DNA from: Dehalobacter restrictus DSM 9455 | Lineage (GTDB): Bacteria > Bacillota > Desulfitobacteriia > Desulfitobacteriales > Syntrophobotulaceae | Assembly: GCF_000512895.1 (NCBI RefSeq) | Contig: NZ_CP007033.1 | Coordinates: 1,351,001 to 1,415,000 of the forward strand | Length of the DNA stretch: 64,000 nucleotides | Direction of reading: 5' to 3' | Shown here: in pieces, positions 42,466 through 45,402 of the stretch | Numbering within the stretch: position 1 is the first letter of the stretch | How the letters are laid out: each line of letters starts with the position of its first letter | Notes under the pieces: model-generated | Seen by the model: the letters and a program-made list of their open reading frames with translations, nothing else | Told to the model about the DNA's origin: nothing | The model's database searches: none | Translations under genes and position numbers: made by a program

Positions 42466-42499
42466 AACCTTATATTTATAACGAAACGATTGATGAAAA

Positions 42500-42543
42500 A
42501 GCTGGGATGTCGTTGTACGACGCTACATCCCAGCTTATTTTTT
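42500..42543 (+). terminator. Terminator after the sigma/DUF4349 operon
   Basis: AGCTGGGATGT and ACATCCCAGCT form a strong stem, followed by TATTTTTT. It separates this operon from the rdh promoter. Confidence 0.88.
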
Positions 42544-42603
42544 ATCAATTTATTTTAAATAAAAAAGCAGAGAAATTCCTGGAATTAGAAAAATAATCAC
42601 TAA

Positions 42604-42617
42604 TTAGTAGCTACTAA
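42604..42617. promoter_or_regulatory. Dehalobox (CprK-type binding site)
   Basis: TTAGT-AGCT-ACTAA is a perfect palindrome of the dehalobox form (TTAAT-N4-ATTAA, with known G/C variants at the fourth/second arm positions). Its centre (42610.5) is 41.5 bases before the start of transcription expected from the -10 box at 42640. That is the position from which CprK activates known cpr promoters. Confidence 0.85.
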
Positions 42618-42639
42618 GAGATATTACGTATTACAGATA

Positions 42640-42645
42640 TATAAT
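42640..42645 (+). promoter_or_regulatory. -10 box of the rdhBA promoter
   Basis: A perfect TATAAT; transcription should start near 42652. There is no good -35 box, as expected for an activator-dependent promoter. Confidence 0.75.
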
Positions 42646-42707
42646 GCGAGTGACTTGAGTTTATTTTATAGACTCGATGTGAAAAAGTATGGAAAGGGGG
42701 TGTTAAC

Positions 42708-43022
42708 GTGTTGAATGTAGTTCTCATTTTTGTTGTTGGAATGCTCTTTTTAGCAGGTATTTTAGCCCTGAGACCTTACGCAAACAAGACGGACAAAAAG
42801 AAAACTGTGCTTAATTGGTTTCTGTATTTGGTATGGTTTCTGATTACTTGTATCGGGCTATCTTTCATTGTGCTTAATGCTCAGATTGGTCATGTCAAAG
42901 CTACGAGTACCGGAATCTTTCTCTTTTTTGGGCTATCTATCGTCATCGGAATCGTATTAGCAAGATTAGTGGGATTGATAGGTCTAGGTAAGAAACAGAA
43001 AAGTTCTAATTTGACGAGTTAA
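42708..43022 (+). CDS. rdhB: Reductive dehalogenase membrane anchor
   Basis: A 104-residue protein with three membrane helices (about 3-21, 36-56, 69-91), the typical RdhB/CprB/PceB topology that docks the catalytic subunit to the outer face of the membrane. The loop between helices 2 and 3 reads 'VLNAQIGHVKATSTGIFLF'; the E-x-Y or related loop motif of PceB is not seen, as in CprB types. AAAGGGGG lies seven bases before the GTG start. It precedes rdhA by 13 bases, the cprBA order rather than the pceAB order. Confidence 0.9.
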   Translation: MLNVVLIFVVGMLFLAGILALRPYANKTDKKKTVLNWFLYLVWFLITCIGLSFIVLNAQIGHVKATSTGIFLFFGLSIVIGIVLARLVGLIGLGKKQKSSNLTS

Positions 43023-43035
43023 GAGGTGAAAAGTA

Positions 43036-44376
43036 ATGTCGAAATTTCTAGAAGAAAAACAGCAGGAACAAGGATTCCAGATGAACCGACGTAAATTTTT
43101 AAAGGCAGGGGCTGCTTCTGCACTGGCAGTAGGGATTGTTGGCGCAATCGGAGTTTTGCCGTCAGAAGCTATGGCAAGCCAGACAGGTTCTCAAAACGGA
43201 GCCAAATCCAAGCTGCATCCCAATGTAGATTATGGTGGTGCCACTGTCCGATTCGTTGAGAATAACGATCAATGGCTTGGAACTTCAAAGATCGTCGGTT
43301 CTATTAAAAACACCCATGCAGCAGACGCGGGATTCAATTATGCTATTCGTGGTAAACTAACCCCCGAAGCTCGAAAAGAATCCTTCCACTATCACTTTGT
43401 TGGTAAGCATCCTTTTAATGCTGCTCTTATGGGATTTGTCGGTGTTATCGCTCCAGACGCAATGTGCGGTGGAAAACCGGCTCCTGAAAAGCTGCCGATT
43501 CCTGATCCTGAACAAATGTCCCAGCACATTAAGGATTGCGCGTATTATTTACGCGCTGACGAAGTTGGAATCGGCAAGATGCCCTCTTATGCTTATTATA
43601 GTTACAGGTCCCCTTCGCAGGATGATTTGTTTAAGAATGGGGATGATTTGTCTAAGTCAATTCCGGTCACGGAGAGGATGCCTTATGTCATTACGTTTAT
43701 GGTTGACCAGCATTTGGAAACGATGTTGGGTTCGACCGGATATGATGGTATCAGTGCTGGTCAATCCTTCCGTTCATACCATGCGTCCGGTGTTATTGCT
43801 GTCATCTTAGCGAGTTATATTCGTAACCTGGGTTATAATGCCAGGGCAAATCATATTTCCAACTATGAAGCAGTCATGGGTCCCTGCCTGATAGCGTCGG
43901 GATTGGGCGAGTTATCCAGAACAGGAGACTGCGTAGCTCATCCCCGTCTGGGATTCCGCCATAAGTGTGCAGCTGTAACCACGGATTTGCCGCTCGTTCC
44001 CGATAATCCCATTGATTTCGGCTTGCAGGATTTTTGCCGGGTGTGTAAAAAATGCGCGGATAACTGTCCAGGGGGCGCTATTACATTTGATGATGATCCA
44101 GTCGAGCACAACGGATACTTGCGATGGAACACTGACTCTCTAAAATGCACAATATTCCGGTCAACGAACAAAGAAGGTTCTTCCTGCGGCAGGTGTATGA
44201 AAGTATGCCCTTGGGACTCAAAAGAACAATCCTGGTTCCATGAAGCAGGTACTTGGATCGGCAGTAAAGGTGAGACCTCATCCAGATTGCTTAAGACAAT
44301 CGATGATATGTTTGGCTATGGTACGGAACAGATCGAAAAATATAAATGGTGGCTGGAATGGCCCGAGAGGTATTAG
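43036..44376 (+). CDS. rdhA: Reductive dehalogenase catalytic subunit
   Basis: The 446-residue protein is about the size of CprA. It has a Tat signal with R18-R19-K-F-L-K followed by a hydrophobic stretch and a likely cleavage near A35-MA. The corrinoid-binding core is followed by two ferredoxin-type [4Fe-4S] motifs: C334-x2-C337-x2-C340-x3-C344-P and C371-x12-C384-x2-C387-x3-C391-P. It should reduce an organohalide as terminal electron acceptor on the outer face of the membrane, using cobamide and two Fe-S clusters. The order B-A with a CprK-type regulator resembles the ortho-chlorophenol (cpr) group, so a halogenated phenol is a reasonable guess; the substrate is not proven. GAGGTGAAAAG precedes the ATG. 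Confidence 0.93.
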
Positions 44377-44415
44377 CCATCAAACAATAATCGATTCAGT
44401 TTTCTCATTAGGTGT

Positions 44416-44455
44416 ATCTTTAAGCGGCCGGGGCTTTATCTTGCCGCTTAAAGAT
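44416..44455. terminator. Hairpin after rdhA
   Basis: ATCTTTAAGCGGC and GCCGCTTAAAGAT form a perfect 13-bp stem with a 14-base loop, 40 bases after the rdhA stop. No T run follows, so it may be a weak or factor-dependent terminator or an mRNA-stabilising hairpin. The rest of the gap up to rdhK shows nothing further. Confidence 0.55.
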
Positions 44456-44694
44456 ATAAATGTCTATTACTTGCAATCGGTCTTCATCAAAAAATATTGC
44501 AGAGATTTAATCGTCATTTGAAAAGAATCTTCCTTCTTTTTTCTAATGACTTTTTTGGTTTCAGCAAATAGCCAAGGGACTAATAATCTATTAAATTTTA
44601 GAAGACTAGGCTTAAAACAACAAGAAAACTACCATAACGGGTATAATGAGGGTGACCACAGTATTATATTTTTTTTTAAAAGGTGGGGATAACT

Positions 44695-45402
44695 TTGGAA
44701 AACGGGAAACTATCGGATTGTATAATAAAGATGCCTATTATTCCAACATTTGATCCCATTGAAGAGCTAAACATGTATACTTCTCTTGGAAGCCTGCATA
44801 CATTTGCAAGAGGAAGCAAGATCGTTTCGCCCGGCATACCTTTTAGCAATGTTATTTTCTTGATTTCGGGACAACTTGACGTGAGTATGGTATCGCGGAA
44901 TGGTGAGGAAAAGTATCTACTTGAAGTTTTTAAGAACGGTATAGCGGTGGCTTTAAACCAAAATGATGATCATGAATTTCAAATTACTGCAGTAAAAGAT
45001 TGCACTGTTTGTTTTTTTTCTTTGGATATAATGATTGCAATATTATCGCAGAATACCCGTTTATTTAAAAATTTTATCTTGAATCTTATACAAAAAACGC
45101 AATACTTCATGTATCAATCAAGGGACTTATATCAAAGCCGTCCTTCTGCTAGGGTATTCTCTTTTCTATATAACCTCTGTCTGACAAAAGGAAATCGGGT
45201 GAATGACTATTATGAGTTAGCGGTTGAGAATGTGTCTCAAAAGACGATTGCCAAAATAACAGGAACCCATCCTGTGACGGTTTGTAAATTATTTACTTAT
45301 CTTAGTAAAGAAGGCATCATAAAAAAGAATAGAAAAGTCATAAAGGTTTACGATCTCAATAAATTATGTAACCTTATTGCGAATGAGGAATTAACGTATT
45401 AA
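44695..45402 (+). CDS. rdhK: CRP/FNR-family reductive dehalogenase regulator (CprK-like)
   Basis: About 235 residues, as in CprK (232). The N-terminal effector-binding beta-barrel begins near residue 20 and the C-terminal winged helix has 'VSQKTIAKITGTHPVTVCKLFTYLSKEGII' as recognition region. CprK proteins bind a halogenated phenol and then a dehalobox. Cys9 near the N-terminus and a Cys in the recognition helix recall the redox cysteines Cys11 and Cys200 of CprK, though the alignment has not been checked. TTG at 44695 lies six bases after GGTGGGG; a GTG at 44683 would fall inside that site. Its likely target is the dehalobox at 42604. Confidence 0.88.
   Translation: MENGKLSDCIIKMPIIPTFDPIEELNMYTSLGSLHTFARGSKIVSPGIPFSNVIFLISGQLDVSMVSRNGEEKYLLEVFKNGIAVALNQNDDHEFQITAVKDCTVCFFSLDIMIAILSQNTRLFKNFILNLIQKTQYFMYQSRDLYQSRPSARVFSFLYNLCLTKGNRVNDYYELAVENVSQKTIAKITGTHPVTVCKLFTYLSKEGIIKKNRKVIKVYDLNKLCNLIANEELTY

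Follow-up and report, generated by a model that had tools for sequence, protein, structure and literature searches.

How is a reductive dehalogenase operon switched on in a bacterium that carries about 25 rdhA genes, yet for which growth is known on PCE and TCE only? Most rdhA genes of Dehalobacter restrictus PER-K23 lie in two clusters, a layout that matches the one published for the strain (PMC3910700), and the one considered here is isolated. It is found in a window of 64,000 bases (bases 1351001-1415000 of the single 2,943,336-bp chromosome), from whose first base positions are counted below unless a genome position is given. Based on its location between the two rdhA clusters and on gene order, we infer that it is Dehre_1408, which has a 99.6% orthologue in strain E1 (PMC3910700).

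The DNA upstream of this gene very probably holds an answer. A palindrome at 42604-42617 has the features of a dehalobox and is predicted to act as the operator for rdhBA, whose promoter would be of class II and depend on an effector, with the linked CprK-like protein RdhK as its most likely regulator. This reading is drawn from sequence, geometry, conservation, enrichment and homology, and from these it predicts binding, activation, a start site and an effector. The rdhBA operon would be a new instance of a conserved on-switch of a type known from a related bacterium. As the set of regulator, operator, and promoter accompanies the isolated rdhA of four Dehalobacter species, it offers a handle on the effector of the operon, and so probably on its substrate. 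The search for this effector would be feasible in a reporter bacterium, which avoids growing or engineering Dehalobacter.

The isolated rdhBA locus and its promoter

The reductive dehalogenase is encoded by rdhA (43036-44376, forward strand; 446 aa). The protein matches TIGR02486 with 250 bits, over the cut-off, and carries a Tat signal and two 4Fe-4S motifs (Fer4 matches). It shares 60.6% identity with the linked CprA-type protein of a Desulfitobacterium dehalogenans-type genome (G028), and only 35% over 221 residues with PceA of its own strain. These identities fit an enzyme of the aryl type better than one of the PCE type, without proving a substrate. The preceding gene, rdhB (42708-43022, forward strand; 104 aa), encodes a putative membrane anchor, an assignment based on its position, the small and hydrophobic nature of the protein, and RdhB relatives found beside cprA-type genes. 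It starts with GTG, which is ATG in one orthologue.

Upstream of the promoter, a terminator-like hairpin followed by ATTTTTTAT (42499-42536, forward strand) was predicted, with a fold of -23.6 kcal/mol and a z-score of -6.5. In three orthologous loci, its stem still pairs through a double change from G-C to A-T. It is probably the terminator of the ECF-sigma-like and DUF4349 genes on its 5' side, from which it would insulate the rdh promoter. A second strong hairpin, which carries no U-tract (44413-44458, forward strand; -26.2 kcal/mol, z -4.4), lies between rdhA and rdhK. Most of its stem is conserved in the four species, and it is possibly an mRNA 3' end or a processing element between the two genes.

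The original prediction had described the palindrome TTAGT-AGCT-ACTAA centred at 42610.5 and a TATAAT hexamer at 42640-42645, and both proved exact to the base. Read directly from the sequence, the forward-strand palindrome is perfect over 14 bp and is made up of TTAGT (42604-42608), AGCT (42609-42612), and ACTAA (42613-42617). It has the 5-bp inverted repeat, the 4-bp spacer, the outer TTA...TAA bases, the purine and pyrimidine at positions 18 and 19, and the T at position 20 of a dehalobox, for which the base requirements come from the CprK-DNA structure (PMC2610375).

The -10 hexamer lies on the forward strand, 22 bases downstream of the dehalobox. It had also been claimed that a -35 box is lacking, which agrees with what we found: by eye, AGAGAT at the 17-bp spacing has 0 of 6 matches to TTGACA (3 of 6 at 16- or 18-bp spacing), and a promoter scan returned no sigma-70 match at the rdhBA promoter. 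With the end of the hexamer at -7, transcription is predicted to start at 42652 on the forward strand, which places the centre of the dehalobox at -41.5. The arithmetic behind these two values in the original prediction was right, while the start is deduced from the -10 position only, by the usual distance between the two; the figure of -41.5 is therefore a restatement of the 22-base gap. With the start placed in this way, the spacing is that of class II CRP/FNR promoters.

Two minor elements surround this core. Directly 5' of the dehalobox, an abutting ACTAA half-site creates an overlapping palindrome ACTAATTAGT (extra half-site listed at 42599-42608, forward strand). One species has a G as the first base here, so that conservation is lower than for the dehalobox itself. 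The predicted 5' leader of rdhBA contains a hairpin (42653-42680, forward strand) that is largely conserved in the 4 species and of weak statistical significance (fold z -1.7).

Comparison with the cpr system and a predicted mechanism

The original prediction took it as known that CprK activates cpr promoters from this same distance, and a positive control shows the matching layout. In the D. dehalogenans-type genome, cprBA is preceded by TTAATACGCACTAA-N22-TACAAT, and the CprK encoded there agrees with the PDB chain 2h6c at every one of the 212 aligned residues. As this cprBA promoter has the same N22 geometry, the layout before rdhBA equals that of the experimentally studied cpr system. The promoter was chosen as a control because no exact match to dehalobox DB7 (TTAATacacATTAA, at -41.5 in D. 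hafniense) adjoined an evident rdh gene: such matches were present in four genomes of the order, and 0 of the 4 examined stretches showed one.

The likeness to cprBA of Desulfitobacterium extends over the 14-bp inverted repeat, the 4-bp spacer, the 22 bases to the -10 hexamer (in G028), the rdhB-rdhA target, and a regulator gene nearby. The locus differs from that system in its half-sites, which read TTAGT/ACTAA and not TTAAT/ATTAA, in the position of rdhK, which follows rdhBA, and in its regulator, which is only about 34-36% identical and has a changed effector pocket. The left half-site TTAGT is shared with DB8 of D. hafniense (TTAGTatacGCTAA), the box of RdhK1; DB8 is an imperfect palindrome, however, whereas the dehalobox of the window is perfect. 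RdhK1 is 89% identical to CprK1 (PMC7062800), while the RdhK encoded here is not close to CprK.

The same gene order was found at rdhBA-rdhK loci of other Firmicutes, namely Candidatus Dichloromethanomonas (L187), a Peptococcaceae MAG (L186), and a third locus (L289), although an unrelated gene separates rdhA and rdhK in L186. Compared with the window, RdhA is 71-77% and RdhK 40-42% identical, and both half-sites and pocket residues differ. In L186 and L187, the box stands 23 bases before a TATAAT-like -10, one base off the 22 seen here, and L289 has a poor -10.

Taken together, the elements suggest the following mechanism. In uninduced cells, RNA polymerase would use the rdhBA promoter poorly, because a -35 box is missing although the -10 is a good one. 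Binding of an organohalide to RdhK would then allow the RdhK dimer to bind the dehalobox 41.5 bp before the start, where it would touch the polymerase beside the -35 position and turn on rdhB and rdhA. The regulator would most likely be the linked RdhK, though a paralogous RdhK could bind too. When D. restrictus grows on PCE, rdh transcripts other than that of pceA are low or absent (PMC3910700), which agrees with an effector-dependent promoter.

RdhK and its paralogues

The gene rdhK (44695-45402, forward strand) encodes a CprK-like CRP/FNR regulator, with an E-value of 4e-34 to CprK 2h6c (about 1e-34 across the CprK structures). The TTG at 44695 fits better as its start than the GTG at 44683, since the latter falls inside the Shine-Dalgarno sequence AAGGTGGGG. 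Assignment to the RdhK subfamily follows from the relationship to CprK, a cNMP-binding-type domain with a Crp-type HTH, and the rdh neighbours; similarity to the solved CprK was judged enough to predict the fold. Orthologues are 96-97% identical, and in each of the four Dehalobacter species the gene is a neighbour of rdhBA.

Unlike several paralogues, rdhK has no dehalobox in its 318-bp upstream gap. A TATAAT at 44642 was considered as its promoter and rejected, as it is not conserved in another Dehalobacter species (G001). Elsewhere in the genome, dehalobox-like palindromes lie 5' of several rdhK genes (G000:C1 999261, 2056275, 2083470, and 818180), which suggests auto- or cross-regulation among RdhKs.

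When aligned to CprK, RdhK retains K133 as well as the features with which CprK reads DNA, namely V192 and T193 in the recognition helix and a C-terminal Tyr. At or near the ligand site, Y76 is replaced by L, G85 by V, N92 by H, and Y130 by L; as the alignment is gapped around 76-92, its assignments there are less secure than those for K133 and the recognition helix. The inter-domain salt bridge is changed at R155 (to S), E159 (to N), and E68 (to R). K133 has been argued to mean phenolic effectors (PMC3638464), and halophenols had been put forward as candidates for this regulator; that suggestion rests on the retained lysine, whereas the other ligand-site and the salt-bridge positions are changed. 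Because of these changes, RdhK is not classed as a CprK proper, that is, an o-chlorophenol sensor. As its pocket differs from that of CprK despite K133, a halophenol of the CprK type is no more than a candidate effector.

In relatives whose genes neighbour similar rdhBA genes, H92 and N159 are found as well, R155 is kept, and K133 is present throughout. We tentatively propose, at somewhat less than even confidence, that the linked RdhK is one member of a sub-group found across several Firmicutes genera. This sub-group would combine the lysine of CprK and the helix that reads the dehalobox with a rebuilt effector pocket, in which F or L stands for Y76, M, L, or V for G85, H for N92, and A, I, or L for Y130. 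Given that pocket, its members may sense an organohalide class other than the hydroxyphenylacetate-type chlorophenols of CprK, and the rdhBA operon that RdhK would control here is one for which no activity is known in D. restrictus.

The original prediction had named the protein at 44695-45402 as the switch of rdhBA. Its reading is supported as to the identity of the dehalobox, the class II spacing, the rdhBA target, and a CprK-type regulator encoded downstream, while its choice of the linked RdhK over some 12 close paralogues is a probable one. The dehalobox could be a real RdhK operator whose physiological regulator is a paralogous RdhK, or several sharing it, with the linked RdhK acting elsewhere or as one of several. 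The genome encodes 12 further close RdhK-like proteins (E < 1e-20), and the same half-site occurs in other boxes, e.g. at 778363 and 999261. Moreover, RdhK6 is documented to cross-bind a box that belongs to a different cluster (PMC7062800), and cross-talk has been proposed from proteomics (PMC9888536). However, the linkage of rdhBA and rdhK is kept in four Dehalobacter species and two more distant relatives, and dehalobox and RdhK are both strongly conserved. We therefore consider control by a paralogue unlikely, if worth keeping in mind, and retain the linked RdhK as the most likely regulator.

Genomic frequency, conservation, and spacing of the box

Pattern searches covered the 2,943,336-bp chromosome (2.94 Mb) and selected stretches. 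The pattern TTAGTN4ACTAA occurs at 3 sites in the genome, each adjoining rdh genes, compared with 10 sites for its reversed control. Relaxing it to TTARTN4AYTAA gave 15 sites, 7 of which fall inside rdh regions (164.5 kb, or 5.6%; the window locus is among the 7), against 0.84 expected. The composite box-N22-TATAAT has a single match without mismatches, the rdhBA promoter of the window, and 4 matches when up to 1 mismatch is allowed, all 4 in rdh regions. Matching of the box alone with 1 mismatch is uninformative genome-wide, as it yields 369 sites versus 749 for the control.

The perfect composite is also present once each in three other Dehalobacter species (G001, G002, and G003), where in every case its position is the orthologous one. 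Across the 4 species, all 14 dehalobox bases and the TATAAT are unchanged, and the 42-base stretch that runs from the box through the -10 varies at one base only; this change, in the spacer, is a T in this strain and a G in the others. Orthologue identity is 84-93% for DNA just upstream of the promoter and 93-98% for rdhA DNA.

Spacing was compared in 41 other, non-redundant rdh promoters from this genome, the genus Dehalobacter, and more distant Firmicutes. Allowing up to 2 mismatches in box and -10, gaps of 22 and 23 bases were found in 4 promoters each, and every other gap between 8 and 39 bases in at most 2. The resulting 8 of 41 compare with a mean of 0.48 for dinucleotide shuffles, none of which (0/300) reached 8. 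Many rdh promoters of the D. restrictus genome carry no clear box at the 22-23-base spacing.

The shape of the palindrome is common to sites of the CRP/FNR superfamily in general, and the box might instead be bound by a different member, such as one that regulates redox or metabolic genes, or by a repressor whose site overlaps the promoter. One observation counts against the operator reading: G001 contains a second exact TTAGTAGCTACTAA (L154:2087-2128) that is not at an rdh locus, the identical 14-mer standing upstream of a GNAT/acetyltransferase-like gene with no evident link to dehalogenation, near a short MarR-like ORF. FNR-type sites, however, need a C where the dehalobox has a T, a difference that the CprK-DNA structure explains by V192 (PMC2610375), which RdhK retains, and the box is enriched at rdh genes. 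As for a repressor, the position matches activation, and there is no -35 box to block. Such a site is thus quite improbable, and an RdhK operator is still the favoured reading. A chance palindrome in A+T-rich DNA before a constitutive or dead promoter is hardly credible: when 3 mismatches are allowed, about 1.6 such 14-mers are expected in each 64-kb window, so that the box on its own is within chance, but the exact composite is unique, invariant in four species, repeated in its spacing at unrelated rdh promoters, and matched by the cprBA control.

Two further repeated sequences were noted in the genome. The motif TTTGTTTACATTAA recurs at G000:C1 819338, 821354, 998152, 2048076, 2059665, and 2082084, about 150-200 bases 5' of several rdhA genes and inside or beside rdhB; it is probably conserved rdhB coding sequence rather than an operator. 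Another TTAGTN4ACTAA box lies at G000:C1:778363-778376 (L001, L111), at rdhBA genes of cluster A, and is conserved in G002. Since its best -10 at N22 (TATACT) points away from these genes, this box may serve a divergent transcript.
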